DNA of 64,000 bases, taken from contig NC_007516.1 of the NCBI RefSeq assembly GCF_000012625.1, forward strand, positions 1,302,001 through 1,366,000. Direction: 5' to 3'. The notes beneath the pieces are model-generated. The model made no database searches. It was given only the letters and a program-made list of their open reading frames with translations, and was not told the origin of the DNA. This stretch comes from Synechococcus sp. CC9605 (GTDB lineage Bacteria > Cyanobacteriota > Cyanobacteriia > PCC-6307 > Cyanobiaceae). Of this stretch, positions 13,829-36,937 are shown one piece after another; positions within the stretch are counted from its first letter, which is position 1, and the number at the start of each line of letters is the position of its first letter. A program made the translations under genes and the position numbers.

Positions 13829-13833
13829 TGAAG

Positions 13834-13920
13834 CGGAGAGCGAGGGATTCGAACCCTCGATAGAGTTGCCCCTATACAGCATTTCCAGTGCTGCGCCTTC
13901 GACCACTCGGCCAGCTCTCC
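13834..13920 (-). tRNA. tRNA-Ser (anticodon GGA)
   Basis: An 87-nt class II tRNA. The acceptor stem GGAGAGC pairs with GCTCTCC with discriminator G. The D-arm starts TGGCCGAGTGG, the anticodon loop is CTGGAAA with anticodon GGA (reads UCC/UCU), a long variable arm follows, and the T-loop is GGTTCGAATCC. CCA is not encoded. Confidence 0.96.
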
Positions 13921-23304: not shown

Positions 23305-24105
23305 CTCTGGATTGCACTGCTGCTGGTTTGGTCGCTCGGGCCAATGTTTTGGCAGCTGGTGAGTTCCTTCACCACTGCAGATGCTCTGGTCAATGACCAA
23401 CTGAGCTTCTGGAGCCGTTGGACGCTCAACAACTACCGGGATCTGCTCAGCACCGATGCGCCCTTCTGGCGTTACCTGTTCAACAGCAGCTTGGTGGCTT
23501 CCCTCACCACACTGCTCACCTTGATGCTGGCCATCCCCGCCGCCTATGGCATGGCCAAGCTCCCGGATCGATGGAAGGGAAGCCTTCGGGCTGCGGTGGT
23601 GGGCGCCGCTCTGTTCCCTTATGTGCTGCTGTTTCTGGCGCTGCTCGAACTGGCCCGCACCTTTGCCCTGGGCAACAACCTGATCGCCATCGCCATTCCC
23701 TACAGCGCTCTGTCGATGCCTCTGGCCCTGCTGCTACTCACGGCGGCGTTTGAAGCCCTGCCCAACGATCTCGAAGATGCAGCAAAGCTGGAGGGGCTGT
23801 CGTTGTGGCAGCGGCTGCGCTGGGTGCTGCTCCCCTTGATTGCACCGGCCTCCGCCAGCACGGCAATCCTGGTGTTTTTGTTCGCCTGGAATGAATATCC
23901 CGTGGCCCTCACCTGGCTGAGCCGCAGCGATCTGCTCACATTGCCGGTGGCCATGGCCCGAATTGCGGGATCATCCACCTATTCCGTCCCCTATGGCACC
24001 TACGCGGCAGCCACCGTGCTCGGCGCCATTCCGCTGCTGGTGCTGGTGCTTGTCTTCCAGCGTCAGATCGTCAGTGGACTCACCAACGGAGCCATCAAGG
24101 GATAA
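23230..24105 (+). CDS. ggtD: ABC transporter permease, Ggt type (MalG-like); host of the insertion junction
   Basis: A 291-aa permease with about six membrane segments. The EAA loop is PNDLEDAAKLEGLSLWQRLRWVLLPL. The N-terminus has five 15-nt repeats giving several in-frame ATG codons; the first overlaps the ggtC stop, while the last (23290) begins the usual MalG-like start MTQRSLWIALLLV. The last codons (gcc atc aag gga) lie inside the 13-bp attachment repeat and the stop TAA is supplied by the inserted element. Its cognate ATPase gene is now about 11.8 kb downstream. Confidence 0.85.
   Translation: MTHESLTHGPMTRGSMTLGLMTQRSLWIALLLVWSLGPMFWQLVSSFTTADALVNDQLSFWSRWTLNNYRDLLSTDAPFWRYLFNSSLVASLTTLLTLMLAIPAAYGMAKLPDRWKGSLRAAVVGAALFPYVLLFLALLELARTFALGNNLIAIAIPYSALSMPLALLLLTAAFEALPNDLEDAAKLEGLSLWQRLRWVLLPLIAPASASTAILVFLFAWNEYPVALTWLSRSDLLTLPVAMARIAGSSTYSVPYGTYAAATVLGAIPLLVLVLVFQRQIVSGLTNGAIKG
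24091..24103 (+). repeat. attL core (13-bp direct repeat)
   Basis: GCCATCAAGGGAT, identical to 35934-35946. It forms the last codons of ggtD; the base pair after it completes a TAA stop. The four bases AACG found six to three bases before the core are also shared with the right copy. Confidence 0.85.
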
Positions 24106-24172
24106 GTCCCTGCTTGAGACTGATCTAGGCATCAAGATCTCAGTCGTCGCAATGCTTTTCAGCCACCGAATG

Positions 24173-24205
24173 TGTAGCTACCGTGTGGCTACCCAGTGGC
24201 TACGT
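24173..24205 (+). repeat. Left arm-type repeats (three 11-mers)
   Basis: TGTAGCTACCG, TGTGGCTACCC and AGTGGCTACGT lie head to tail just upstream of the integrase start. The same unit recurs near the right end. Regularly spaced short repeats flanking an att core are typical binding sites for the N-terminal domain of tyrosine integrases. They may also let the integrase control its own gene. Confidence 0.75.
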
Positions 24206-24212
24206 CCCCTGA

Positions 24213-25796
24213 ATGCCGAGGAAGCCAACGCTTCTGCCGTACTTACAGACGCTGCCCTCAGGAAGGCTGCGTTATGTGCGGCGTGTACCCCCTGATCTGC
24301 AGGAATTTCTGGGCAATCGGCGCTACATCACGGTGCTCATGCCGAATAACGCCCGTGAATCCACCGATAAGCGACTGATCAAGGCCTGGAACGAGGCAAC
24401 AACACAGGTTGAAGCGGAAATTGCTGCAGCACGTGCGGAACAACAGGCCCAATCACTGGGCGCACAGCAGGTATCTGCCTTGTCACCAAAGGATGTGGCG
24501 GGAATTGCGGCTGAACCTTGGCGAAAGCTGCTGAATGCAGGCGATCAGGGGCGAATCACCACCGATATCGAAGACATGCTGGCCGAGGTGGTGCTGATTG
24601 CGCTGGAAGCCATGTCTCAGGCGGGCAAGCCGGGAGCACTAGAGCAAATCGAGGCAGCAAAAGCGGCAATCACGCAACGAATGGTGGGAGAAACGCTGGA
24701 GAAGCTGCAGATCCAGCCTGATTCGCAGGTAATGCGGCAGATCCAGCAGCGATTGCTGGGATACGTCCCGATGTTTGGGGCAGATGAGCAGAAGCGGGCA
24801 GCAGGAGACTTCAGTCCTGGGGATATCGAGACGAAACCACCACCGTTACCCAAGGCCAAGGTCACATACGCACAGCTCATTGATGAATGGGTGCGAGATG
24901 CGGGAGGAATCCGTGAACTTGATGGCGTTGGCGTAGGTCAGAAGCAAGTCGAACAGTATCGAGCGCATATCACTGAGCTGATTGAGGTCACACAGCTGCA
25001 TTACCCCGATGAGTTGGATATCGACACGGCACGGCAGTACTTGACCCACATTCAGCTCTCAAAGCTGGCAACAGCCACGAAGCAGACGAGATTAGTGACG
25101 GTGAGCAACCTGTTTGCCATTGGTGTCCGTGTTGGGCTGCTCAATCAGAACCCATTTGCTGGATTAAGGATCAAGCGACCAAAGGGAGAGAGGGGGAAGG
25201 GCTATCGACCGTTCACACGGGAAGAACTGATGGTCATCTTCAAAGAGATCAACAGGCTGCCGCCCAATCAGAAGAACATCGTGCCGTTGATCCTGCTGAT
25301 GACTGGCGCAAGGCTGGGCGACATCATCTTTCTTAGGCATCGGGACGTTGAGCAAACCAACAAGGGGACTTGGTTCTTTGACATGGTCGATGAGCCCAAG
25401 GATGAGTACCCAAGGACTCTGAAAGGCGGATCTGAGGACGAGCGAATGACACCACTGCATCCACTGCTTGTTGAGCGTGGTGTTCTGCAGATGGTTGAAG
25501 CAGACAAGTCTGGATACGTCTTTGAGAACAGGAGTAACGAAAGCTTGAGCGCCTGGTTCAAGCGCTTGCTGCAAAAGACTGAGATCTATGAGTACAGAAG
25601 GACAGGACTGCACTCATTGCGTGCAACGGCCATCGATGCTTGGCGTGCCGCGCGCTTACCCGCGGACGTCCGTCGTGCATTGACAGGGCACAGCAGCAAA
25701 GACGTCCAAGACAGGACGTATGGCGAGGGGCTGCAGCGAATGCCAGACATCCTGCATGCAGAGCTATCGAAAGTTGACTGGAGCTGGCTGCCATAA
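24213..25796 (+). CDS. Tyrosine recombinase (integrase)
   Basis: A 527-aa phage-type integrase. The catalytic set is complete: Arg near 367 (MTGARLGDIIFL), Lys near 405 (RTLKGGSED), His-x-x-Arg near 467 (GLHSLRATAIDAW), His near 493 (LTGHSSKDVQ) and the nucleophile Tyr near 503 (DRTYGEG). A core-binding SAM-like domain begins near residue 210 (TYAQLIDEWVRDAGG). The first ~200 residues are long for the family and may bind the arm repeats. It lies at the left edge of the element; it presumably integrates and excises it at the ggtD/ggtA junction. Confidence 0.93.
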   Translation: MPRKPTLLPYLQTLPSGRLRYVRRVPPDLQEFLGNRRYITVLMPNNARESTDKRLIKAWNEATTQVEAEIAAARAEQQAQSLGAQQVSALSPKDVAGIAAEPWRKLLNAGDQGRITTDIEDMLAEVVLIALEAMSQAGKPGALEQIEAAKAAITQRMVGETLEKLQIQPDSQVMRQIQQRLLGYVPMFGADEQKRAAGDFSPGDIETKPPPLPKAKVTYAQLIDEWVRDAGGIRELDGVGVGQKQVEQYRAHITELIEVTQLHYPDELDIDTARQYLTHIQLSKLATATKQTRLVTVSNLFAIGVRVGLLNQNPFAGLRIKRPKGERGKGYRPFTREELMVIFKEINRLPPNQKNIVPLILLMTGARLGDIIFLRHRDVEQTNKGTWFFDMVDEPKDEYPRTLKGGSEDERMTPLHPLLVERGVLQMVEADKSGYVFENRSNESLSAWFKRLLQKTEIYEYRRTGLHSLRATAIDAWRAARLPADVRRALTGHSSKDVQDRTYGEGLQRMPDILHAELSKVDWSWLP

Positions 25797-25833
25797 AAGA
25801 AAAAAGAAAAGCCCCCACCCAGAGGGTGAGGGC
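25797..25833 (-). terminator. Terminator after the minus-strand gene at 25841-26563
   Basis: On the minus strand GCCCTCACCC, a 3-base loop and GGGTGGGGGC form a GC-rich stem followed by a T-rich run. The site lies between the convergent integrase and the 240-aa gene. Confidence 0.75.
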
Positions 25834-25840
25834 AAGAGGT

Positions 25841-26563
25841 TCAAGCAATGGCTTGTTCTTTGGTAGCGCTGGCCTTGCGACGGGAGCGCTTGGGTTTGCG
25901 GATCTCGTCGAGTAACTCTTCGATCTCCTCAGCAGGTACCTCGAAAGATTCCTCTTCAACTTGGACCTGAGCCTCAACAAAAGGGCTGTCCTCGTTGTCT
26001 TGGCTGGTTCCGTTGACGTAGCTGATGATGTTCAGCCGCTCGTCATACCCAAGCTTCTCGCCAGTGAAGGCGGATTCAGGCAACTGCACACGGTGGAACT
26101 GTCCGTTTTCGCAGTAGGAGAGATCAACGAAGGTCGCTCGCCCTTTGCTTCTCAAGGTGATGGTCACCTGATCGGCAAGTTGTTGGCGGCTCATGTGTTT
26201 GAACTGCGTGAGGAAACTCGTGGCAGTCCAGCTGTCAAAGCCGCAGCGGTACACATACGTGGTCCCATCAACTGCTGTGACAAGGATGAGCAGCTTCTCC
26301 ACTGGGTCATAGCTTTCGTACTGCTGAGTCTTGATTTGAAGGTCAACAATCCAGCAGCGCAGTGAGTTGGGAACCCACATGCGAGAGCCATCTTCTAAGA
26401 GGAGATAGGCACACCTTCCCTTGCTGGCATCACTGGCACCAGCGATAAACAGCGTGGTCATCATCGATTGCTGAAGCTCAGAGGATTCATCGGTGAACCC
26501 GCTGAGACCATCAGCAATGTTGTCAATGCCTGCCTGGTCGACAGGAACGATTGAGAGAGTCAT
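25841..26563 (-). CDS. Uncharacterised element protein, 240 aa
   Basis: No family is recognised. It starts at ATG 26563 (a GTG precedes it). It has a folded-looking N-terminal two thirds with Trp/Tyr-rich segments (WVPNSLRCWIVDLQIKTQQY; VYRCGFDSWTATSFLTQF). An acidic stretch (EEIEELLDEI) is followed by a basic tail (RKPKRSRRKASA), a layout common in DNA-associated element proteins. It has no signal peptide or membrane segment. The 5' leader contains a terminator-like hairpin, so expression may be attenuated. Confidence 0.7.
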   Translation of the reverse strand: MTLSIVPVDQAGIDNIADGLSGFTDESSELQQSMMTTLFIAGASDASKGRCAYLLLEDGSRMWVPNSLRCWIVDLQIKTQQYESYDPVEKLLILVTAVDGTTYVYRCGFDSWTATSFLTQFKHMSRQQLADQVTITLRSKGRATFVDLSYCENGQFHRVQLPESAFTGEKLGYDERLNIISYVNGTSQDNEDSPFVEAQVQVEEESFEVPAEEIEELLDEIRKPKRSRRKASATKEQAIA

Positions 26564-26622
26564 CACAGTTTTCTGCTAGGTGAACACGACCTTCAGGCTG
26601 ATGAGGCAAGAAGATCACCACG

Positions 26623-26734
26623 AAAAAAGGCGTCCCGTAGGACGCCAGTGGCTGTTGTTTGCTCTGTGTTAGAGCACTTGGAATAAGGCTCGTTGGAACC
26701 GAGCGGGCTGTTATTTGCAGTGAGTTATTGGCAG
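26623..26734 (-). ncRNA. Candidate small RNA or attenuated leader
   Basis: About 112 nt on the minus strand between a predicted start near 26734 and a T-run at 26623. Three hairpins are visible: GCTCG/CGAGC (26688-26704), GCTCT/AGAGC (26661-26675) and the terminator GGCGTCC-CGTA-GGACGCC (26629-26646) with six Ts. It either ends here as a small RNA or is a leader whose read-through feeds the 240-aa gene 60 bases further on. Confidence 0.55.
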
Positions 26735-26740
26735 AAAGAA

Positions 26741-26769
26741 ATTATGTTTGCTAGGTTTGTGACATCCAA
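26741..26769 (-). promoter_or_regulatory. Sigma-70-type promoter of the candidate RNA
   Basis: On the minus strand TTGGAT (26769-26764) and CATAAT (26746-26741) are separated by exactly 17 bases. It is divergent from the AbrB-type gene, whose ATG lies 15 bases from the -35 end, so the regulator could act here. Confidence 0.55.
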
Positions 26770-26783
26770 CAAGCAGTAATCCA

Positions 26784-27152
26784 ATGCTGACTGGCACCGA
26801 CCTTCTCTCGAAGGTGAAAGATCTTGGCGACGTCTCAAAAACAGACTTGGCCCGTGGCTGCGGCTACGTATCCACCAAAAAGGATGGTGGTGAGCGGGTG
26901 AACTTCACCGCTTTCTATGAAGCCTTGCTTGAAGCCAAAGGCGTCACCCTTTCAAACGGTGGCGGCTCTCCTATTGGCAAAGGTGGGCGCAAGCTGTCCT
27001 ACAAAGCTGTGGTTCAAGGCAACGGCAACCTGCTCGTGGGCAAGGCTTACACCGCCATACTTGATCTGGATGCAGGAGATGAGTTTGAAATCAAGCTCGG
27101 CAAGAAAGCCATTCGCCTGGTCCCTGTTGGTGGATCTGACGAAGAGGAGTGA
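26784..27152 (+). CDS. Cyanobacterial AbrB-type transcriptional regulator
   Basis: A 122-aa protein of the cyAbrB family. The N-terminal half (LLSKVKDLGDVSKTDLARGCGYVSTK, then FYEALLEAKGV) is the cyanobacterial-specific part. The C-terminal half (VVQGNGNLLVGKAYTAILDLDAGDEFEIKLG) is the AbrB/SpoVT swapped-hairpin DNA-binding fold, placed C-terminally as in cyAbrB. Host cyAbrB proteins tune nitrogen, carbon and phage-related genes; a copy on a mobile element could regulate the element or interfere with the host. It has its own terminator. Confidence 0.85.
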   Translation: MLTGTDLLSKVKDLGDVSKTDLARGCGYVSTKKDGGERVNFTAFYEALLEAKGVTLSNGGGSPIGKGGRKLSYKAVVQGNGNLLVGKAYTAILDLDAGDEFEIKLGKKAIRLVPVGGSDEEE

Positions 27153-27184
27153 GGACCACGGCTAGCCAATAGCCCTCACCCGTT

Positions 27185-27213
27185 GCCCTGCCACAGATGT
27201 GGTGGGGCTTTTT
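27185..27213 (+). terminator. Terminator of the AbrB-type gene
   Basis: GCCCTGCCACA and TGTGGTGGGGC form an 11-bp stem (two wobble pairs) with a GA loop, followed by TTTTT. Confidence 0.85.
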
Positions 27214-27511
27214 AGCCAGCGTCTATTGGGCTCGTACCAAGCCTGTTCTCAATCACGCATCTACGAGTAGCTATCGAACTACGCTGAGCACCATTTACAA
27301 AGCATGCGCGGGGTCGGCAGAGGCTTTCTTTTTTGCTCCAGCCACCGAGCGAATAATTGGGGAGTTTGGGGCGTCAAATTTTTTGCAGCACATTTTGGCC
27401 TCTATAGCGCTTTTTCTCTTTCCCAAAGCCATCAAGCCAATCAGCACGGTAAATAAATCTAAAAACTGTTGCTTCTGAAAACTATTTTTGATTCCCCAGC
27501 CACTCAAAAGG
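27214..27511. other. No convincing gene
   Basis: Open frames exist on both strands (plus to 27478, minus 27295-27555), but neither has a recognisable family, a ribosome binding site or consistent codon use. The stretch lies between the regulator's terminator and a run of pseudogenes. Confidence 0.5.
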
Positions 27512-27793
27512 ATTGCCATATCTGACCTGCACGAACTCAATGTTCCTGTGAGCAAGGCTGAGCTGGTTTCTGCAGCAACGTGCAGAAGGAACTAGCTCGG
27601 GACTCCTTCAAGTTGCGCCCTTGGAGCCAAAAGGAATTTCTCGAGAAGCTGATTCGCTACTAGGACGCCTTTCCAGGAGAGATCCGGCTCGTGCTTCCCC
27701 TGAAGAAGGTGTGGATGGTGGCGGGTGATGCGGAGAAATGATTTTGCCTCTCGGCTGAGGGAGCAAAAAATCGCTTCATCTCCCCCAAGTGAG
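27512..27793 (+). pseudogene. Decayed small gene with two in-frame stops and a frameshift
   Basis: Read from 27580 (GTG) the plus strand gives VQKELARDSFKLRPWSQKEF, then LEKLIRY, a TAG, DAFPGEIRLVLPLKKVWMVA, GDAEK, a TGA, and FCLSAEGAKNRFISPK before the final stop. The text is strongly protein-like across both stops. A neighbouring frame from 27512 (ISDLHELNVPVSKAELVSAA) looks like its upstream part after a shift of one base. The original function is not recognised. Confidence 0.65.
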
Positions 27794-27852
27794 GGATGCG
27801 AACTCCCATAGGGCAGAAGCATCTTGAGGAGGAACATGCACTCCCATGTCCC

Positions 27853-28215
27853 ATGCCCGCACGCCTTATCACTCCCAGCCAGCTGTCGCTATTTAGCATC
27901 AGCCCAGTGATCGGGGCCTGGTGGGAGGAGCTGCAGGCGCAGAAGCTATTTGACGGGAGCAAGCCAGCGGTGAATGAGCCGGATCAGCAGCTGTTTGCCG
28001 ATGGCCTACGCCACGAGCAGGTGCTGCTCACCAAATTGGAAAAGGCAGGCCACAGCATTGCCCGGCTGCCCGGCAAACAAACCGACGCCGACTACACCGC
28101 AACCCGCCAGGCGATGGCAGAAGGAGCGGAGTTAATCCACCAGGCCTCGCTTTGCAATGAGGAGATGCGCGGCAGTGCCGACTTGCTCAAGCGCATTGAT
28201 CGACCCTTTCGTGTG
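27853..28215 (+). pseudogene. Truncated N-terminus of a TM0106-type RecB-like nuclease
   Basis: ATG 27853 opens MPARLITPSQLSLFSISPVI, then GAWWEELQAQKLFDGS, DQQLFADGLRHEQVLLTKLE and EMRGSADLLKRIDRP. This matches the start of the large TM0106-family RecB-like nuclease of marine Synechococcus. Similarity ends abruptly after DRP near 28205; the open frame runs on to 28374 in unrelated sequence. Only about 120 of several hundred residues remain and the nuclease core is missing, so it cannot be active. Confidence 0.7.
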
Positions 28216-28507
28216 GTCCATGGGTTGACTTTGCAGTCAATTTCTCTTGTTCATTATTCCAGCAAAATCCATTGGCAACAAAGAATTCCTCTACTTAGTC
28301 TTTCTTTTTTGTCCCACCGACCAATCGAGTACACAAAGGATTTAATTCGAAGAATATCTCACAGAACTTTATAGATGCCCAGGGCAATTTAGTCTTTCCC
28401 AAAGTTGACAATTTTTTTAGGCAAGTGCGATTTCCATTCCGAAGTTCGTGAAAGTCTCAATCACACTCCTGAAAGCCGCGCGCTCGTTTCGAAAGTCATA
28501 CGCCCAA
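28216..28507. other. Non-coding, AT-rich junction DNA
   Basis: After the nuclease fragment breaks off there is no gene-like frame. A TTGACA hexamer followed by a T-tract occurs near 28404 without a clear -10. Confidence 0.4.
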
Positions 28508-29236
28508 AACGCTGCAGCGTTAACTACGGAGGCCTGAGAAAGAGCTGCAACCGTTGCAACTCTGCAACTCGACTGCTACAACTGGGATCTCAGTGGCACA
28601 GCATTGCAACTACATCGCAACCATTGCAACCGCAGTCTCAGCAATAGATTTGAGGCAGGCATATACTTTACTTAATCCACAGATCGCGTTTCAATTTGAT
28701 ATATTGGATAGTAGGGGGAGTAGTAGTATTTGCATAAAGAGTTAGAAAGCAAGCAGGCGTTAAAGATGCAAAATTGTGCAGAGTTAAAAACATGGAACAA
28801 CTTCAGAAAAGTTTGAGCTATATGGTGTCCAGCGTCAGCAAGATTTAGTGAACTAAGCCGCAGCAGAGGCTTTCTTATTTGAAGTCTGAAATTTTTGGTG
28901 TCTTCACCCTGTAGTCATTGATCAATGCACCTAGCAGCATTGTGATGTATTGGTTGTCTGCACCAGTCTTCATTTGGAACTTTCTTATTGAGTAGTCCAT
29001 TTCACTAAAGAAATCACGTACGTCCTTTAGTTGTTGCTCTTTTGAAGCCATGAAGGTCAAGAACTTCAAATGGAATACACCAGTTTCATGCGGATATTGA
29101 GTGCTGTCTGTATCAAATGTATTTAGTCTGATCAAAAAAAACCAGTTATGTCAAAGGGGTTGCATTCTGGTTGCAGTTATTCACTTCTAAAAAGCCAGTC
29201 ATACTAGGGGAGTTGCAGAGTTGCAGTGGTTGCAAC
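28508..29236. other. Candidate replication origin with iteron-like repeats
   Basis: Elements in order: a 14-bp perfect palindrome AACGCTGCAGCGTT (28508-28521); five TGCAAC copies (28546, 28555, 28563, 28605, 28625) plus two one-base variants; TAATCCACA (28673-28681), an 8/9 match to the DnaA box; AT-rich DNA to about 28745; a small minus-strand gene; and five GTTGCA copies in inverse orientation (29159, 29170, 29212, 29220, 29229). A RepA-like ATPase gene ends 21 bases beyond. Such a cluster is what an iteron-controlled origin looks like. Function is inferred. Confidence 0.55.
28875..29051 (-). CDS. Small uncharacterised protein inside the candidate origin, 58 aa
   Basis: MASKEQQLKDVRDFFSEMDY followed by SIRKFQMKTGADNQYITMLL. 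The protein is helical-looking and charged; no family is recognised. ATG 29051 is chosen; a TTG at 29135 would extend it to 86 residues. It sits between the two inverted GTTGCA arrays and downstream of the ATPase gene on the same strand, so it may belong to the replication module (for example copy control). That is inference. Confidence 0.5.
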   Translation of the reverse strand: MASKEQQLKDVRDFFSEMDYSIRKFQMKTGADNQYITMLLGALINDYRVKTPKISDFK

Positions 29237-29256
29237 TCTCTCCCACACCCAGCTTT

Positions 29257-30756
29257 TTAGTAATCCGGAAGCAGCTCTTGCTTGATGGAGTAGCTGACTT
29301 CGTAGACCTTTCCGTCTGATGTCTCGTATTCAGTGACGAGTGGCATGCCTCGGTAACGCTCCGCTGTCAGTGCCTTGAGGTTTCTGCTGACTGTCCCTTT
29401 GTTGATCCCACTGTCTAAGACGAGTGTTGTTTGAAGGATGGGAGCGTCATAACCGCGCAGTGCTTCCAACACGTCACGCTTGCCCTGGCTGAGCCCTTTG
29501 ATCTTGGTCAGTAGCGATGGACCATCGAGGTCTTCATTGAGCTGCTCCTCTGACTGGAGCGAAAGGAAGGCGTCATAGAAGTCTCCGTGGCTCTTAACCG
29601 TGCCGCCCTGGAAGTCGAGCTCCACCAATAGATCGATGGGAGTGCCTCGGTGTCCTGACACCAGCCGACGCTTGGGCGACTTGCGGTCAGGCACCGCCTT
29701 GCCATTGACCTTGCTCTTCTGGTCAAGGAAGTTCAGCGTGATGATCTGACCAGCAAAGGCAGGGATTGATCCGTGTCCCCGCAAGCTATCAGCACCAGTG
29801 AATTCCTGAGTGCTCTCCTTCTTTTGATGCGCCAAGAGGATCGGAGTGGCCCCATACCGTTCGCACAGCAGCTTCAAGTCGAGGATGCGTGCGGCGACAA
29901 CAGCTGAATTCTCATCGACTCCTGTGCCTGAGATAGCAGCAAGGAAGCTGTCCACAACAACGATGGAACTTGGCGCTTTCTTCAGAAGAGCCTCCAACTT
30001 GTCGAGGTTGGTGTTGGTAATCCCCCAGCCGCTTTCATTAGGAATGAAATTGAAGCCATCCACAGGAATTCCATCACGAATCAAGCCTGTGTTCCTAAAG
30101 ATGGGCGTGTAGACATTGCGTCCACCATCAAGGCCAATAAAGAAGACTTGGTTGACCAAATCACGGTTGACCTTAAAGCTAAGAAACCGTGGCTCCCGGT
30201 CGTGGTTCATCAGTGAGCTCAGCAGCATCGCAGTGAAGTTCGTCTTGGCTGCGCCTGAGAGGCCTCCAATGATGTTGAGCTCTTCAGCCATCACAAGGTC
30301 TTCAATGATGTGGCGTTGAACCGATTGGAACCATTGTGCTCCCTGGTGCTTGTTAATAACTACTAAACGGGAGCCGTACTTCTGCTTGTTGTGCTCGTCA
30401 CAGAGAATCTGAACAATCCGATTGTGGTCCAACGGATGGCCTGCTTGCTTAGCGGCATATCGAATCAAATCAGACTTAAGCTCCGAAGTCAGGTCGGGCT
30501 TCTGGCAGATCTCCGTGATCTTGGTCTTCAATTCAATCAGAACTCGCTCGTAATCATCAATGGTTTCGGCAACACGCTTGCCATTCTTGCCACACAACTG
30601 CTCATCGAAGCAGTGTGAGACATCAGGGAGAGGCTCAAAGAAAGTCTCTTCATCGTGAGATGAAAGGAAGTCAAATTGTTCGTAGTCAATCGAAGACTCT
30701 TGATTGCTGACGCCCTGAATAGCTCCATACTCGAGTTCACCGAAATCCTTAGTCAT
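29257..30756 (-). CDS. RepA-like RecA-fold ATPase (AAA_25 type), putative replication helicase
   Basis: A 499-aa protein. Walker A is GGLSGAAKT (residues 164-172), Walker B SSIVVVDSF (about 263-271), followed by ILLAHQKKES and ADSLRGHGSIPAFAGQI, the pattern of RepA/AAA_25 hexameric ATPases of plasmids and phage-like elements. The first ~160 residues match nothing I know. The C-terminal ~90 residues (GKRDVLEALRGYDAPILQTT; NKGTVSRNLKALTAERY) look like a winged-helix DNA-binding domain. The start is ATG 30756 (a TTG lies 15 bases upstream). Its 3' end is beside the iteron-like repeats. Confidence 0.75.
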   Translation of the reverse strand: MTKDFGELEYGAIQGVSNQESSIDYEQFDFLSSHDEETFFEPLPDVSHCFDEQLCGKNGKRVAETIDDYERVLIELKTKITEICQKPDLTSELKSDLIRYAAKQAGHPLDHNRIVQILCDEHNKQKYGSRLVVINKHQGAQWFQSVQRHIIEDLVMAEELNIIGGLSGAAKTNFTAMLLSSLMNHDREPRFLSFKVNRDLVNQVFFIGLDGGRNVYTPIFRNTGLIRDGIPVDGFNFIPNESGWGITNTNLDKLEALLKKAPSSIVVVDSFLAAISGTGVDENSAVVAARILDLKLLCERYGATPILLAHQKKESTQEFTGADSLRGHGSIPAFAGQIITLNFLDQKSKVNGKAVPDRKSPKRRLVSGHRGTPIDLLVELDFQGGTVKSHGDFYDAFLSLQSEEQLNEDLDGPSLLTKIKGLSQGKRDVLEALRGYDAPILQTTLVLDSGINKGTVSRNLKALTAERYRGMPLVTEYETSDGKVYEVSYSIKQELLPDY

Positions 30757-30892
30757 AGCTTTCAACAGCAATAGCAGTCAGTCAATGATTGGCGACAAGT
30801 AAACTTTCAAGTCTTATCAAGGCCAATAAATAAAACCAAGAACTTTATGCTAGCGATAAAATAAAGCGCTCGTGGGCATACGCGCAGATGAA

Positions 30893-30908
30893 CATTTTAG
30901 CTAAAATG
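30893..30908. promoter_or_regulatory. 16-bp perfect palindrome between divergent genes
   Basis: CATTTTAGCTAAAATG is fully self-complementary. It lies 38 bases before the ATG at 30946 in the 189-base gap between the ATPase gene and the divergent two-gene operon, a likely operator for a dimeric repressor. Confidence 0.55.
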
Positions 30909-30945
30909 AATAGATGAAATTAGAGAGATGGTTGGAGCCTTTTAG

Positions 30946-31470
30946 ATGAACTACGTGCCGAAAACTAAAGACGAATACATCCAAGCGCAAAGCAAACTAG
31001 TGAGTGAGGCTCTCGCGGGAGACCTCTGTCGAATCAACGTTTACCCAGCTCAGAACCGTGAGCTCTGGTTACTGGACAAGTCGTACAAGGCAATTGGCTT
31101 AATCCACCGTTGGTTATTTTTTTCTGACTACTTGAAGACAGGCAAACCAGAAGAAATGATTTTTTCCGCCTATACCTTCGCCCATCTACTCAAGAGAGCA
31201 GTGAACGCAGGTAAAGCAGAACACCCAGGGCGCAACTTTGTCGGGTTCACGGAAGAGGCCCTAAGCCATATGGCCGAGAGGGGAATTATCGACCTGCTTG
31301 TTCTGGATAATGGGTTCTTAGCTGCCTGCATTAAGAACGGAGGCAAAAGAACGGATAATATTGAGGAAGGCAGAGATCGATATCAGAAACAAGTAAAAGA
31401 GAAAATCACCAGGCGCAATAACGACATTCGCCATCTCAAGCGTTGCTTTGATTTTCCACTCAACAAGTGA
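30946..31470 (+). CDS. Uncharacterised element protein, 174 aa
   Basis: No family is recognised. It starts MNYVPKTKDEYIQAQSKLVS, has a mixed alpha/beta middle (YTFAHLLKRAVNAGKAEHPG) and a very basic end (KQVKEKITRRNNDIRHLKRC). There is no signal peptide or clear membrane helix. ATG 30946 is preceded by GGAG-like sequence. It overlaps or abuts the next gene (stop at 31468-31470), so the two form an operon divergent from the RepA-like ATPase. Confidence 0.65.
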   Translation: MNYVPKTKDEYIQAQSKLVSEALAGDLCRINVYPAQNRELWLLDKSYKAIGLIHRWLFFSDYLKTGKPEEMIFSAYTFAHLLKRAVNAGKAEHPGRNFVGFTEEALSHMAERGIIDLLVLDNGFLAACIKNGGKRTDNIEEGRDRYQKQVKEKITRRNNDIRHLKRCFDFPLNK

Positions 31471-31475
31471 ACGCA

Positions 31476-32177
31476 ATGATCAAGAAGAGAGAGCCAGGCC
31501 ATCCAACTACTAAAAAGTTTTTCAGCGGGCAGGAGTTAAGAGAGCAAGCTGCTGCACGATTAAAAGAAAGAGCAGACTCAGAGTTCTTACCGATTGATCC
31601 AAAGGCTAGAGCTGATGCCCTTGAAGAAATCTGTGAGCTTGACTTTGCAACGATGACGAAGCGCGAACTAAGGCATCTGCACCAGGTGTTTGAGGCGGTC
31701 TATTCTTCGTACCTTGATGATCTTGCAGCACTTAAAGACCTGGAGGCAGAAAGCTGCCCTTCAAGCAAGACTTTTGCAGGAGTTGCTGCAGCTATTGAAG
31801 AAGGTGTTACAGTCGGCACAGGAATGATGAGCCCTGAAGATTGGTGTGAGACCCATAGGCTTAGACCTAATGGTCACCGCAAACCAGGCCCACTTCCAAA
31901 GAAGAAGCCAAACATCTTTGACATTACTGCTGGAACGAAAGGGCCTGCAAAGAAGAAGTATGAACCCGTGCACAAGATCCCCCATGAAACTAAAGAGGGT
32001 TATTTAGTTCGGCGTGAGTTGGAGATTGAAGTCCAAAAGAGCATGCAGCAACCACCTCGCTTGGTCGGTAAGCGGGTGAATCGCAACCCAATCCCCAACC
32101 AGCGCTTCGATAAGACCTTGCGAAAAGCTGATCGTGAGCGTCAGGCTGGTGAAACAGATATCAACAAGGAAATCTAA
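31476..32177 (+). CDS. Uncharacterised element protein, about 233 aa
   Basis: No family is recognised. A basic protein with a helical N-terminal half (ELREQAAARLKERADSEFLP; TKRELRHLHQVFEAVYSSYL). The segment PEDWCETHRLRPNGHRKPG and a Lys/Pro-rich C-terminal half (KPGPLPKKKPNIFD; VGKRVNRNPIPNQRFDK) suggest nucleic-acid contact. The start is ATG 31476; a GTG at 31467 overlaps the upstream stop. It is second gene of the pair. The 3' end faces the DUF4912-like gene six bases away. Confidence 0.65.
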   Translation: MIKKREPGHPTTKKFFSGQELREQAAARLKERADSEFLPIDPKARADALEEICELDFATMTKRELRHLHQVFEAVYSSYLDDLAALKDLEAESCPSSKTFAGVAAAIEEGVTVGTGMMSPEDWCETHRLRPNGHRKPGPLPKKKPNIFDITAGTKGPAKKKYEPVHKIPHETKEGYLVRRELEIEVQKSMQQPPRLVGKRVNRNPIPNQRFDKTLRKADRERQAGETDINKEI

Positions 32178-32183
32178 AAGCTA

Positions 32184-32678
32184 TCAAACTCTTGAACCAA
32201 AGCCTTCAGACCCACCCATCAATGTCGAGTTTCGCATAGCTCTTTCATACATTTCTTGGTGAATATTTTTTGATTCATTTGTGAACCAATCTTCTTCTAC
32301 AGATGGCTCAATAATCTTCAAGCCGAAGTCTACGACTGCAGTTTCAAGCACAGCAAAGTCGCCTGCTGCGTTGTAAAAGCCAAGCTGCATATCGATCATT
32401 CCTGTGACTGGAGGCAAATCAATACGAGCTGATCGTGTTGAGGTAGAGACTTCTATAGCTTTAAAGATACTTGAATTGCCGTGGCTATCACTGGCTCGCA
32501 AAATCAGTGTTGAATTGTGGTAATCGTCGACATAATCAATTGTTTCTGTATCGATTGACCAAGAACACACAACCGAATCATGATCTTTCACCGCACCAAA
32601 ACACGCATCGTCAGGATGAACGAGCGCAGCAAGAAACTTGTTGCCTAAAATCTTTAAAGCTGTGTCGATCCAGCTCAT
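32184..32678 (-). CDS. DUF4912-like protein, 164 aa
   Basis: Start ATG 32678 (MSWIDTALKILGNKFLAAL). The middle reads VVCSWSIDTETIDYVDDYHN, TLILRASDSHGNSS and MIDMQLGFYNAAGDFAVLET. This follows the DUF4912 pattern of a Trp-containing strand, an (L/I)LR-x-(Y/S)D turn and a LGYxxxDGxF strand. The assignment is by pattern only. DUF4912 proteins in other bacteria often occur near regulatory or cell-surface genes; the function is unknown. Confidence 0.5.
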   Translation of the reverse strand: MSWIDTALKILGNKFLAALVHPDDACFGAVKDHDSVVCSWSIDTETIDYVDDYHNSTLILRASDSHGNSSIFKAIEVSTSTRSARIDLPPVTGMIDMQLGFYNAAGDFAVLETAVVDFGLKIIEPSVEEDWFTNESKNIHQEMYERAMRNSTLMGGSEGFGSRV

Positions 32679-32798
32679 ACACAAGTTTCAGCACAAGCAA
32701 ATCTAAATGGTTTAAAACCCTTTGCAGGAAGCTTAATAAAACAAAATAGGCCAGATAACCAAAATCGAATAGTTGAATCTGGTAATCAGCTATTCTTA

Positions 32799-32840
32799 TT
32801 GAACCTAAGAAAGTATTTTTGAAATACTTTTAGGGTTCAA
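32799..32840. repeat. 42-nt near-perfect hairpin
   Basis: TTGAACC-TAAG-AAAGTATTT, loop TTG, then AAATACTTT-TAG-GGTTCAA. About 18 of 20 positions pair. There is no T-run on either side, so it is not a standard terminator. It may be a protein-binding site or a processed RNA. Confidence 0.65.
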
Positions 32841-33718
32841 GAGGAGAGACTGTAGTGCGAACGTAAGCGCAGATGTTTGCGTAGCGCACAGAGACCTTGA
32901 TTAACTGAGGCTGTGCATTATGCATGAATCAAAATGCAAATCTATCAGGAAACTAAACGCTAGTTTGAACAGCGGCAAAACGTCTGATAGGACTGACGTT
33001 AGAACATTTGCGTGGCGAATGTAAAGTTAGTTGAAGGATTAAGGGTTAGAGTCAAAAGCCGGTGACTCCGATTGCAGCAATCGTTGTTGCATTTACAACT
33101 GCAATCGAGGAACATAGGTAAGTGACTGGTGGAAGCAGTAAAGACACTAGACGTACCAATATCTACACGAATACGCAACGTATCCGTGTCACTATTTATC
33201 AATTACTTGGGTCGTAATTTTTCCTAAGCCTTTGCCGCCATTGACCGGATAAGTCTCTTCAACCAATGTCGGACAGTAAGTACCAGTCGATAGAGCAAGG
33301 AAGACCAAGACCCTGCTCGTCCGCCCGAGCTTTCGTGGGACCCGCTTAAGTTGGACTGGTGCTTCCCCGTAGTTGGGTAGTGGCCCACAAGACAAAAGTT
33401 TTCTTACGTTCAATCATTTCTAAAGGCAGCCCAGACCAAAGGTGTAGACCAACCGATTCACGAACGACAAGCTTGTGGTCCTGGGTCGCTACCCAACTAC
33501 GAGAACCACCGGTTCACATAAATGGAAGCCCCCGAAACCGAGGGCGGCTTTAGCAGCGGGTTTGACTAATGAAGCAGTAGCTTTTTATTGAAAACCGTGC
33601 CTCAACCTAGTGGCAGAGGTCACTTCAACAAAAGAAAATAAAAGTAAATCGACCGCTTGCGATCGTCCTTTTCAATGGTGCGGCAATAGGCAGCACAAGT
33701 GGAGGACCAAAGACAAAC
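32841..33718. other. About 0.9 kb without a convincing gene
   Basis: Two short minus-strand frames overlap here (32999-33202 and 33192-33413; the latter includes CGPLPNYGEAPVQLKR), but neither is recognised. The region has an inverted repeat (33368-33501) and a hairpin at about 33524-33552 (AAGCCCCCG/CGAGGGCGGCTT) that resembles a terminator on the plus strand. It may be degraded DNA. Confidence 0.4.
33368..33501. repeat. 13-bp inverted repeat with related inner sequence
   Basis: CGTAGTTGGGTAG at 33368-33380 is matched by its exact reverse complement at 33489-33501. The adjacent inner bases (TGGCCCACAAG and CTTGTGGTCCTGGGTCG) are also partly complementary. Both arms can be read as a peptide containing LPNY, suggesting an inverted duplication of a short coding piece. 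Confidence 0.6.
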
Positions 33719-33736
33719 CAACCGCTTTAGCGGTTG
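33719..33736 (-). terminator. Hairpin overlapping the end of the 63-aa membrane gene
   Basis: CAACCGC-TTTA-GCGGTTG, a 7-bp stem containing the stop codon of the minus-strand gene, followed on that strand by GTTTGTCTTT. A weak terminator. Confidence 0.5.
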
Positions 33737-33918
33737 TCCTTATTAGCAAGCTTGCTATCAATCCACCTCGAGAAAATATAAACACCAACAAACATTGGTG
33801 CATAGATTACCCACATGTTCTCTAGTTGATAGCCACTATTATTCACAAGTACTAAGCCTGAATAGCTGAGGACCATATAAATGGAAACTCTTCGGATGAC
33901 TGGAAATTTGCTGAGCAT
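33727..33918 (-). CDS. Small membrane protein, 63 aa
   Basis: Two hydrophobic segments (about residues 12-25 and 35-50: YMVLSYSGLVLV and WVIYAPMFVGVYIF) separated by a short polar loop, with a charged tail (SRWIDSKLANKDNR). It resembles the next protein (33990-34256) in length, topology and the NxWVxxxPxxxxVYxxxxW motif, so the two are probably paralogues. Function unknown. Confidence 0.55.
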   Translation of the reverse strand: MLSKFPVIRRVSIYMVLSYSGLVLVNNSGYQLENMWVIYAPMFVGVYIFSRWIDSKLANKDNR

Positions 33919-33989
33919 CCAAGATCGACGTGTCTGCTTACCCTAGCAAGTTCAATTAGTCTTCACTTCTTCTCTTGCTTTGGTTGCTT

Positions 33990-34256
33990 CTATGATTTGA
34001 ATCCTTTGGCTGAAGGTTCATTTCTTTTTTTAGCAGGCTTAGCAACTGGAGGCGCTATCGATTCATCTTTGAAGACTTTTCCTTCTACCCAAATAGTTAA
34101 CGCATAGACAAGAATCAATGCTGGCACAAGGACAAGCCATTCATTGTCAAACTCATATGGGATCTGCCTCACACCAAACACAGTCAGATATCCAGTCGCA
34201 AGCGTGAGAATAAGCCGCCATATCGTTCCGGAATTCAATTGACTTATCCAAGGCAT
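33990..34256 (-). CDS. Small membrane protein, 88 aa
   Basis: Two hydrophobic segments (LILTLATGYLTVFGV and WLVLVPALILVYALTIWV), then a Lys/Pro-rich cytosolic tail (PPVAKPAKKRNEPSAKG). The start is ATG 34256; a GTG lies just before. It is a paralogue of the 63-aa protein encoded next on the same strand. Two-helix membrane proteins of this kind on mobile elements are sometimes toxins, holin-like or exclusion proteins, but nothing here decides that. Confidence 0.6.
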   Translation of the reverse strand: MPWISQLNSGTIWRLILTLATGYLTVFGVRQIPYEFDNEWLVLVPALILVYALTIWVEGKVFKDESIAPPVAKPAKKRNEPSAKGFKS

Positions 34257-34259
34257 CAC

Positions 34260-34754
34260 CGCTCACTCTATTGAGAAGAGGGAGTGCTGCCAGATGCTCA
34301 TTCGGTAGCTATCAATTGAATGTGGCTTGCGAAATCGAGCTTTCGCTTTGACTCGAAAGTCACACAAGGGGGTCAAGGGCAAGCAACCAACCTGCCCTTT
34401 CTCCTTAGCTATTGCTAGAGACTAGGTGTGCTGAGCCGAACTCCTCAGACCTGACGTGTCTGGGATTGTGCCGCCGGGATGCAGAGCTGCATTCTCTTGG
34501 TTGGTGCTGGGTTTTACAAGGGCATAGCGCTCTCCTTGAAAAGCTTTGACCAAGCGACTCACATCAGCGGATCGTCCCAAGGAGGAGGACGATGTTTTTG
34601 TGACAACCACTACAAAAAATTACCAGCGGTTTTCACCTTTATGCACGGTTTGCGTACTGACAGCGTGGGACTGGTAGCTTTAGCGGCCGCTAAGACTGGA
34701 GGGGATTGAGGTCTGAAGATCTCCCTCTCACAGCACTTACAACTTCAGATCAAC
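34260..34754. other. Mostly non-coding; one doubtful 62-aa frame (34422-34610, minus)
   Basis: The minus-strand frame contains LVKPSTNQENAALHPGG and could be a fragment of a longer protein; no family is recognised. Also present are the first copy of a 26-bp direct repeat (34559-34584) and a palindrome TTTAGCGGCCGCTAA (34679-34693). Confidence 0.4.
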
Positions 34755-35023
34755 ATGCGGTTTGCAGCAATCCTTTCGTTGATGTTGTTGGCTCCGGCAG
34801 GTGTGTTGGCCCATGAAGCCAAGGCCACGGCCGAAGGAATGTCAAAAGAATTCGCAACTGCTGAGGCAATGCGTAAAGTTCCTGAGGGCGCATCAGTGAC
34901 GGGCACCACTTGCAGAAGTAAAGACGTGGGAATGTCGACCCGTTACTGGTGCACTGTTGAGTACAGCGATTGAGTTGCTGACTTAAATCGTGATGCTTCA
35001 CATCAGCGGATCGTCCCAAGGAG
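34559..35023. repeat. 26-bp direct repeat flanking a small secreted-protein gene
   Basis: Copies at 34559-34584 and 34998-35023 are identical (both contain CAGCGGATCGTCCCAAGGAG). They lie 439 bp apart and bracket the gene at 34755-34973, suggesting that this piece was duplicated or moved as a unit. Confidence 0.8.
34755..34973 (+). CDS. Small secreted protein, 72 aa
   Basis: A signal peptide (MRFAAILSLMLLAPAGVLA, cleavage after VLA-H) is followed by a 52-residue mature part with two Cys (GTTCRSKDV and YWCTVEY), probably a disulfide. It resembles short secreted proteins common in marine Synechococcus, of unknown function. It is bracketed by the 26-bp direct repeats. Confidence 0.65.
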   Translation: MRFAAILSLMLLAPAGVLAHEAKATAEGMSKEFATAEAMRKVPEGASVTGTTCRSKDVGMSTRYWCTVEYSD

Positions 35024-35212
35024 CAGGGATATCGGTATCTGCTGAAGTGTGATTAATGAACTGCAAGAGCGTTTGCCAGGCAGCGGTGATGAGTTGCGTG
35101 CTTGTCAAAGCCAATGGGCAATTGGTGACAACCTACAGGGTGTCCACCGCTTGACTTGCGCAATTCGTCAGATGCGATACCTAATCAGATCGATTGTTTT
35201 CAAAACAACGTC
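35024..35212. other. Gap with only a doubtful 32-aa frame
   Basis: A 32-codon frame at 35056-35154 (contains LVKANGQLVTTYRV) is the only open piece. A similar short peptide (WLEANGQLSV) occurs at 55783-55893. Neither can be called a gene. Confidence 0.3.
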
Positions 35213-35754
35213 TTAAGCAGGTGAATTGCCTGAGGCAGGAGCATTGTCTCGGCGTTGCTTTTTATAGATCAGCTGCTGAAGCCTGGTGAGGTTGAGCTGG
35301 TGCTCACCGTTGGTCCAGTGCATTGGATGAGCTACTCGTGCTTCGAGCTCGGCGATTTCGTTGTTGAGGTTTCTCGCTGGGTCCTCGGACCGTGGAACAC
35401 CTTCACTGTGATGCACCAAGGGGCAGCTGACATCAGTGCAGGTTTGCTTCTTGTCTTGCAGCCCAGGGCGTTGCGTGTGACCAGCCAGCACTGACGTATG
35501 AGCTGTATTCCAGGAGGCAGCAGTCGTTTCTTGAGGTGACAAGCACCCAAGACCTGGCACTGGCTGAGGGTGACGTAGCCAAAGGACGAGCAAGTGGAGC
35601 AGCTTTTGACCTCACAGAAGGGTTCGAGGTCACGCTCATCGAGAAAGTTCCAGTCCTCCATGCTTTTGATAGGCAGCAATACACCTGTACTACAACCAGC
35701 CAAAGGTGAGTGGCAACCACTTGGCACAAGCGAACCGGTTTCTACAGAAATCAC
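35213..35754 (-). pseudogene. Probably one gene broken by a frameshift
   Basis: The 5' part, in one frame from ATG 35754, reads MEDWNFLDERDLEPFCEVKS, then CSTCSSFGYVTLSQCQVLGA, a Cys-rich possible metal-binding segment. The 3' part, in another frame to 35213, reads LNNEIAELEARVAHPMHWTN and QLNLTRLQQLIYKKQRR, a coiled-coil-like end. Each frame loses protein-like character where the other gains it, between about 35400 and 35500. The family is not recognised; two overlapping genes are the alternative. Confidence 0.5.
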
Positions 35755-35786
35755 CCTTAATCTCTGGCTAACAAGTGCCTTGAACC

Positions 35787-35831
35787 TGTGGCTAAACGTG
35801 TGGATTCACTGTGGCTACCGTGTGGCTACCC
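35787..35831 (+). repeat. Right arm-type repeats (four 11-mers)
   Basis: TGTGGCTAAAC (35787), TGTGGATTCAC (35799), TGTGGCTACCG (35810) and TGTGGCTACCC (35821). They share the unit and period of the left array (24173-24205) and lie about 100 bases inside the right att core. Confidence 0.75.
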
Positions 35832-35933
35832 CGTTATTTCAGGCAAGCACTCTCGTTTTATCAAGGCTTGAGAACTCATGCAATGCAGTCGATTCCAATG
35901 AGTCTCAATCACGTCTTAATAAGAAGTAACGCT

Positions 35934-35946
35934 GCCATCAAGGGAT
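35934..35946 (+). repeat. attR core (13-bp direct repeat)
   Basis: GCCATCAAGGGAT, identical to 24091-24103. The final AT forms the first two bases of the ggtA ATG. Confidence 0.85.
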
Positions 35947-36937
35947 GACACTGCAACTTCGGGCCATCAACAAGCGCTTCGGCGAGCGTCAGGTTCTCCA
36001 CAAGCTCGATCTCGATGTGGCAAAGGGCGAATGCATCGCTCTGCTTGGGGCCAGCGGCTGTGGGAAAAGCACGGCCTTGCGTCTGATCGCCGGGCTCGAT
36101 CACCCCGATCAAGGTTCGATTCGCATCAACGATGCGGAAATGGTTGACGTTCCCGCTGAACGTCGCCGGGTGGGGATGGTGTTTCAAAGCTATGCCCTGT
36201 TCCCGCATCTGAATGTTTGGGAGAACCTCGAACTGGGGCTGCGCATGCGGGGAGGCAGCGCCGGCGCCCGCGATGAACGAATCCGCAGCGTCCTGGAGGT
36301 GTTGCAGCTCAGCGAGCAAGCCCAGCAACGACCCTCACAACTGTCCGGCGGCCAGCGCCAGCGCGTCGCCCTGGCCCGAGCCCTGTTGCGGGATCCCCTG
36401 GTGTACCTGCTGGATGAACCGATGAGCAATCTCGATGCCCAGTTGCGCGAAGACCTACGACCTCAACTGCGCCGCCTCATGATCGGCGGTGAACAACCTG
36501 TGGTCTATGTCACCCATGACCAGCAGGAGGCGATGGCGCTGGCGGATCGCATCGCTGTGATGCGCGAGGGAAGGATTGAACAAATCGGAACACCCCGCGA
36601 GCTGTACCAGCAACCGGCCAGCACCTACGTCGCCCAGTTCATCGGCCGCCCGCAGATGAACCTGCTGCCTGCCAAGAACGGGGTGATCACCGGCATCCGA
36701 CCGGACGATCTGCGGCTCGACCCCGCAGGCTCACCCTGCGCGATCCTCAGCCGTGAATGGTTCGGAGCCAATCAGATGTTGCTGGTGCGCTGCGATCGCG
36801 GCGACCTGCGGCTGGTCTGCTCTGGAGAAACAGCGATCGAGGCTGAACCATGCATCAGCTGGCCCAGTGATTGCGAGCACCGCTTTGATGCCGTCAGCGG
36901 CCGTCGTCTGCCGTCAGGTTGTCCGCCATCCGATTGA
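35945..36937 (+). CDS. ggtA: ABC transporter ATPase, Ggt type (MalK-like)
   Basis: A 330-aa sugar-importer ATPase. Walker A is GASGCGKSTALRLIAG, the Q-loop MVFQSYALFPHLNVWENL, signature LSGGQRQRVALARALL, Walker B VYLLDEPMSNLDA and switch VTHDQQEAMALAD, with a C-terminal regulatory beta domain. It was evidently the last gene of ggpS-ggtBCDA; the mobile element now separates it. The only purine-rich bases before its ATG (AAGGG) touch the start codon, so it has lost translational coupling and has no good ribosome site. The 3' end overlaps csaB tail-to-tail by 44 bases. Confidence 0.9.
   Translation: MTLQLRAINKRFGERQVLHKLDLDVAKGECIALLGASGCGKSTALRLIAGLDHPDQGSIRINDAEMVDVPAERRRVGMVFQSYALFPHLNVWENLELGLRMRGGSAGARDERIRSVLEVLQLSEQAQQRPSQLSGGQRQRVALARALLRDPLVYLLDEPMSNLDAQLREDLRPQLRRLMIGGEQPVVYVTHDQQEAMALADRIAVMREGRIEQIGTPRELYQQPASTYVAQFIGRPQMNLLPAKNGVITGIRPDDLRLDPAGSPCAILSREWFGANQMLLVRCDRGDLRLVCSGETAIEAEPCISWPSDCEHRFDAVSGRRLPSGCPPSD

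Follow-up and report, generated by a model that had tools for sequence, protein, structure and literature searches.

A probable replication origin with mirror-image iteron arms beside a RepA-like helicase gene in an integrated element of Synechococcus sp. CC9605

Results

An integrated element lies between two ABC transporter genes

We analysed a window of 64,000 nucleotides, bases 1,302,001–1,366,000 of the single-contig 2.51-Mb genome of Synechococcus sp. CC9605; positions below are counted within this window, and G and L numbers denote genomes and loci that were compared with it. The element and genes listed here are flanked by an ABC permease gene, whose end is near 24105, and by an ABC ATPase gene with its start at 35945.

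24091–35946, no strand: integrated element of about 11.84 kb, between the ABC permease gene and the ABC ATPase gene
24213–25796, forward strand: tyrosine recombinase (integrase), 527 aa; phrog_1 integrase, E 2.3e-29
25841–26566, reverse strand: conserved element gene; 57% identical homolog in G295 (L033), fragments in G216 (L067)
26784–27152, forward strand: AbrB-like regulator; Pfam AbrB-like, E 3.2e-27; homologs in L033 (G295) and L067 (G216)
29257–30771, reverse strand: Rep, 504 aa; RepA-like helicase domain and probable C-terminal winged helix; Pfam AAA_25, E 1.9e-10
30946–31470, forward strand: conserved partner gene, divergent from rep; 60% identical homolog in the same place in G295

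A 13-bp core, GCCATCAAGGGAT, is duplicated at the ends of the element (24091–24103 and 35934–35946). To survey empty sites, we searched 34 genomes of the genus and compared 30 loci around the ABC ATPase gene, one of them being the window. The site is empty in 25 of the 29 other loci, where the flanks meet directly and overlap by exactly 13 bp; of the remaining four, three have no left flank in the stretch examined, and one (L063) shows a 706-bp gap. We read this as a probably mobile element that is integrated in the chromosome, with an empty site in relatives. The pairing of an integrase with a specific attachment site, by which PICI-type elements are judged, is found here in the shape of the 13-bp core and the 25 empty loci. 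Against the Pfam family Phage_integrase, the recombinase gave an E value of 7e-6 at 0.7 bits under the cut-off. The G+C content of the element is lower than that of its flanks, and its AT content as a whole is 50.6%.

The attachment core lies at the end of the permease gene, and the sole tRNA found in the window lies at 13833–13920. We also observed that the element splits a permease gene and an ATPase gene whose stop and start overlap in relatives, and that both frames look intact. The interrupted ABC operon presumably resembles a cluster for glucosylglycerol synthesis and uptake. An Rfam scan of 24000–36000 at gathering thresholds gave no match. Tycheposons, first described in Prochlorococcus, are likewise chromosomal elements with a tyrosine recombinase; the described ones are bordered by a tRNA gene (PMC10872708), whereas the present element sits in an ABC operon. 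The same attachment site seems to hold other DNA in G216 (L067), in G303 (L068) and in L063: integrase remnants and an AbrB-like gene with no rep in G216, and other genes beside the site in G303. Repeats of the type GTGTGGCTACC lie inside both ends of the element (24169–24203 and 35795–35840) and are possibly arm sites of the integrase.

Two mirror-image arms of short sites flank an AT-rich spacer

An origin of the iteron type had been predicted next to rep, and we resolved the region into the parts listed here.

28545–28630, forward strand: left iteron arm; 7-bp sites at 28545, 28554, 28562, 28604, 28615 and 28624
28570–28593, forward strand: linker motif of the left arm; rank 4 of 23,724 element positions by matrix score
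28631–29149, no strand: AT-rich spacer between the arms; 519 bp, 61.7% AT
28710–28729, forward strand: 20-base box AGTAGGGGGAGTAGTAGTAT, identical in the G295 origin
28875–29135, reverse strand: ORF of 86 aa in the spacer, TTG start; best family match phrog_5343, E 0.0086
29150–29235, reverse strand: right iteron arm, mirror image of the left; sites at 29229, 29220, 29212, 29170 and 29159, and a lost site at 29150
29187–29210, reverse strand: linker motif of the right arm, a weak match; rank 46 of 23,724 positions

The five TGCAAC copies of the original prediction (28546, 28555, 28563, 28605 and 28625) and its five inverted copies (29159, 29170, 29212, 29220 and 29229) were recovered at these coordinates. 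Two extra copies, one inverted at 28553 and one forward at 29231, are the other halves of GTTGCAAC palindromes. Beyond what had been predicted, the spacing of the sites is fixed and mirrored: read from the outside to the inside it is 9-8-42-11-9 on both arms. Ten of the twelve sites match NTGCAAC, one reads TCGCAAC (one mismatch) and the twelfth is lost. The predicted AT-rich DNA is the spacer, the AT content of which exceeds that of the element. Since the stop-side end of the ATPase gene is at 29257, the gene adjoins the repeats as predicted, and the array lies 3' of rep.

Three further components had been proposed for the origin. The 14-bp palindrome AACGCTGCAGCGTT is exact (28508–28521); it lies outside the arms and was set aside as an origin part. 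The DnaA-box-like sequence TAATCCACA is present at 28673–28681, but the window has no excess of DnaA-type boxes with one mismatch (44 found, 52.3 expected) and the G295 origin holds none, and a DnaA-dependent origin was rejected on these two grounds. The small gene between the arms exists as the 86-aa ORF. Its NCBIfam match is far below the cut-off of that family, and it has no homolog at E 1e-3 in the five stretches compared, which include L033 and L034 of G295; G295 does not share it, and we do not count it as a component of the layout.

The repeats are genuine and well beyond what chance would produce. A count of the hexamer had been proposed as a test of enrichment, and what we found is clustering: of the 40 TGCAAC copies in the window, 12 fall within about 700 bp, although the window as a whole has no excess (40 observed against 44.5 expected). 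We shuffled the 11,862-bp element with dinucleotide frequencies preserved and accepted any 6-mer with arms of up to 100 bp less than 700 bp apart. None of 1000 shuffles gave a 3+3 inverted array, compared to the 5+5 array observed. Under a looser test (arms of 110 bp, 1500 bp apart, first-order Markov), an array appeared in 1 of 200. The commonest 6-mer within 730 bp occurs 12 times, compared to at most 9 times in 200 shuffles and 8 times in the DNA on either side of the element.

Between the outer and inner sites of each arm lies a linker motif, near CCCnTGCAGCGCAAnnGATCTnAG, that was likewise not part of the prediction. Its matrix was trained on 16 chosen arms of eight loci, with the window and G295 excluded and the arms of L008, L014, L016, L028 and L003 left out. 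When applied to G295, it ranked the two arms 1 and 11 of 35,956 positions. In the window, three other positions of the element outscore the left-arm linker, as do at least six in the 64 kb; because of the latter, the motif is useful only where the position is already known.

Rep looks like a helicase joined to a winged helix

From its sequence, Rep looks like a helicase of the RSF1010-RepA type that carries a winged helix at its C-terminus. AAA_25 is matched by all 16 members of the Rep family alignment, and the best PDB match of the family profile is RSF1010 RepA (1g8y) with a weak score (E 5.8e-4); T7 gp4 was matched at E 0.37 or worse. Window Rep alone found no solved relative (best E 0.45). 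Towards the C-terminus, at about positions 360–429 of the 444 in the profile, weak scores point to HrcA (E 0.0026) and LexA (E 0.0095). Winged-helix families are matched by a minority of single family members at E up to 0.5, and window Rep itself matches HTH_IclR at E 0.0043, below the Pfam cut-off. Predicted structures of Rep and of its C-terminus were unusable, with mean pLDDT of 35 and 40.

At E 1e-3, Rep has matches in 63 of 300 family genomes, its own included. The closest of these other than itself is the Rep of G295, which is 62% identical over 486 residues; after its own genome and G295, the best match by E value is 31% identical (E 2.9e-20). A search with an alignment of two Rep sequences, those of the window and G295, returned G295 alone among 31 genomes of its genus (E up to 1e-25); among 388 genomes of the class, it returned nothing but the own genome (E up to 1e-20). 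Scans with peptide patterns for Rep relatives gave none in genome contigs or viral contigs, and tblastn with window Rep at 1e-5 found no free relative in plasmid and phage collections.

The G295 relative keeps the layout and changes the word

In G295, the arms lie directly 3' of rep with the same 9-8-42-11-9 spacing on both sides, and all 12 sites read TGGAAAC. The copies thus differ from those of the window at the second base (T to G) and the fourth base (C to A). A thirteenth TGGAAAC copy lies inside the right arm in the opposite orientation. The spacer is shorter (384 bp compared to 519) and equally AT-rich, at 61.7%. The region also has an integrase ORF (41% identical), an AbrB-like gene, the adjoining conserved gene and the divergent partner gene. 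With the layout kept and every copy of the word changed, it is difficult to see an explanation other than a single protein that reads all of them. Identity between the two Rep proteins is 81% over residues 161–400 (helicase), 8% over 401–426 and 54% over 427–504 (winged helix). Since the winged helix is less conserved than the helicase, the presumed reader of the word changes faster.

These observations bear on two other readings of the arms. Transposons such as Tn7 and Mu can carry inverted arrays of protein sites at their termini, and by that analogy the arms could delimit a small unit, about 690 bp long, that resembles a transposon. We regard this as scarcely credible: the arms occupy the same place beside rep in G295, and in the own genome the fixed-spacing triplet is found only in the two arms and at one place with one mismatch. 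A second place of TGCAACCGTTGCAAC in the own genome has no inverted array. The arms might instead be an operator, to which Rep or another element protein binds and so controls transcription of rep or of the small ORF. Initiator proteins often regulate themselves, and the AT-rich spacer holds the box conserved with G295, which could include a promoter. Yet the arms are at the 3' end of rep and not at its start, six sites per arm with a second arm in mirror image exceed the needs of an operator, and the spacer ORF is without a homolog in the stretches compared, which makes this reading improbable. With up to two mismatches, the AGTAGGGGGAGTAGTAGTAT box is found in 3 of 400 family genomes (G000, G295 and G201); the G201 copy has two mismatches and no inverted array in the 3 kb examined.

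Inverted arrays recur beside related rep genes

Next to the fixed spacing and the linker, recurrence beside related genes is the third finding that goes beyond the original prediction. At 44 AAA_25 rep loci, a subset of the places matched by Rep in family genomes, we searched for arrays in a region that spans the rep stop, from 450 bp on its 5' side to 850 bp on its 3' side. This count omits L073, L074, L075 and L081, which are the same places as L003, L020, L024 and L029, and also L087 and L092, which are cut by a contig end or have lost the frame. Inverted arrays of 3+3 or larger are present at the 3' end of 15 of the 44 loci, the window and G295 counted, and when each region was shuffled 300 times, at most one shuffle attained the array observed there. 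In 12 of the 15 the array begins beyond the rep stop, and in three it falls inside the 3' end of the reading frame. The other 29 loci showed no array at the threshold used, two of them having short 3' flanks. Outside this count, L075 has a direct row only (TGTCCG, six copies). As controls, windows of 1.3 kb from other DNA gave no array (0 of 91), and overlapping windows elsewhere in 14 regions, those of the window's element and 13 others, gave 2 of 315. At looser limits, control DNA totalling 195 kb yielded four 3+3 pairs, all of them widely separated.

One close lineage, in which the helicase part is at least 96% identical, accounts for seven of the 15 positive loci. Because these seven share a nearly identical Rep, we count about eight independent cases. 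Within this close group, the winged helices are 81–97% identical and the chosen words range from GATTCTTTG to ATCTTTG; between groups the words differ widely (TGCATC, GGAATC, GGGTTC, CTCAACTAC and TGGCTCAC). The geometry of the arms was compared with a word chosen by hand for each locus and one or two mismatches allowed. By this measure it recurs in 12 of 15 loci, with sites at 0 and 9 and then at about 59–63, 70–73 and 79–82, not all of which are present in each; four of the 12 have a third site at 17–18. A shorter geometry (0, 8–9, 40–41, 52–53) is seen in L028 and L088, and neither form fits L003 (the same place as L073). In several relatives, fewer than six sites per arm can be recognised. 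A family search found a tyrosine recombinase no more than 12 kb from rep in 7 of 13 genomes, six of the seven being of the close group; the 13 comprise 12 genomes with inverted arrays and G142 with a direct row.

A centromere-like partition site for the excised form would be another way to read the arms, since partition sites are also arrays of short repeats. The arrays, however, recur beside a helicase gene in about eight lineages, and no ParA or ParB family was found in a Pfam scan confined to 10 proteins, nine of them of the element. We consider a partition role very unlikely. The same 10 proteins gave no match to a primase family.

More distant relatives of Rep occur on free replicons. The Rep of G274 has relatives in 5 plasmid records and in 6 phage records that represent three distinct phages, and the Rep of G198 has relatives in 5 plasmid records, which with those of G274 make seven distinct plasmids. 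No inverted array lies 3' of the gene in phages S-CBS3 and S-CBS1 or in three of the seven plasmids, and for this reason the array is not general to this helicase family. Rows of other kinds were noticed on some of these replicons. Plasmid AP018311.1 (L114) has rows of GGCAGA (4) and TCTGCC (4) at 733–957, on the 5' side of its AAA gene, and plasmid CP101713.1 (L116) has a direct row of four CTAACA near 4018, near the 3' end of an AAA ATPase gene. In phage S-CBS3 (L112, GU936715.1), a stretch of at least 40 bases on the 3' side of the RepA gene reappears, inverted, near the end of the record (near 4100 and 4870).

We also searched for the words themselves. Neither the 20-base box nor the TGCAAC triplet with a fourth site was matched in viral contigs. 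The TGGAAAC triplet with 9-8 spacing is found in two viral contigs, L117 and L118, which carry the same AT-rich sequence with no inverted TGGAAAC; the 6-mer TGGAAA forms a 4+3 inverted array in L117 that is probably due to chance. No inverted array accompanies the TGCAAC triplets of G274 and G145 within the 3 kb examined. The triplet on contig G274:C15 (L094) has the 9-8 spacing of the window, with no detectable rep or inverted partner within 3 kb.

Discussion

Comparison strongly supports the original prediction of an iteron-type origin beside a RepA-like helicase gene in a mobile element. We conclude that the two arms are, with high probability, the replication origin of the integrated element, recognised by the adjacent Rep. 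From the sequence we infer a Rep hexamer, its binding to the sites, six sites per hexamer, melting, replication and excision. The C-terminal winged helix of each Rep subunit would bind one 7-bp site, so that one arm of six sites would seat one hexamer, and the mirror-image arms would seat two hexamers in opposite directions. The AT-rich spacer would then be melted and each ring loaded on one strand, after which host replication enzymes would proceed bidirectionally on the excised circle or on the integrated copy. That the six sites of an arm would match the six winged helices of the ring is an attractive idea.

The layout differs from that of several known replicons. Classical iteron plasmids have a Rep_3-type initiator with long direct iterons; Pfam and NCBIfam scans of the selected proteins found no Rep_3-type initiator, and the sites here are 7 bp long in inverted arms, so this type was rejected. 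The hexameric helicase RepA of the IncQ plasmid RSF1010 is the best, though weak, match of the Rep family profile and is not matched by window Rep alone. RSF1010 has separate genes for the RepC initiator, which binds longer iterons, and the RepB primase. In the present element, by contrast, the winged helix appears joined to the helicase, the sites are 7 bp, and the scanned proteins, which take in part of the small ORFs, include no separate RepC or RepB.

In PICIs, too, the origin sits downstream of rep and its two sets of iterons enclose AT-rich DNA, a layout called unique among known bacterial replicons (PMC6092414). The present array shares with PICIs and SaPIs both the position immediately 3' of rep and the two iteron sets around AT-rich DNA. 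The helicase here appears to be of another type, since by profile it is nearest to RSF1010 RepA; the 29 PDB matches listed at E up to 1 include none with the label SaPI Rep. SCCmec Cch2 resembles the arrangement predicted here, in that an initiator helicase ends in a DNA-binding domain and its gene is followed by iterons; Cch2 has three direct iterons of 5 nt and is compared with MCM and D5 helicases (PMC7581432), whereas the present element has two mirrored arms of six sites. The satellite PLE replicates with its own initiator, RepA_N, and iterons, and that report does not predict RepA_N to be a helicase (PMC7145576); initiator family and iteron type both differ from those of the element. In a literature search whose scope excluded most subscription papers and all bioRxiv preprints, we found no account of an origin of this kind in integrative elements of Synechococcus.

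The recurrence of the arrays raises a broader proposal, to which we give even odds: that they represent a widespread, undescribed class of origins in integrative elements of picocyanobacteria and their kin. In such an origin, two hexamers of a RepA-like ring helicase fused to a winged helix would load themselves, facing opposite ways, on arms that mirror each other in a fixed geometry. The word would drift or be swapped together with the winged helix while the spacing and the linker motif stay, and each element would copy only itself. If this is true, a PICI-type origin layout has been reached with an unrelated helicase. The occurrence of the layout beside another helicase type would make it convergent, or else a general solution for ring helicases that load themselves. 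The conserved partner gene divergent from rep, which is without a family match, may belong to the replication module.

The window and G295 together amount to a natural swap experiment, with the same layout, a different word and a different winged helix. The pair thus allows one to ask by experiment which bases are read by which residues and whether one hexamer occupies six sites. The G295 region (L098, L033 and L034; G295:C1:1768000-1815000) also contains a 450-aa ORF and a row of short ORFs; we take the former to have a P-loop-like motif and the latter to look like Nif11-type leader peptides.
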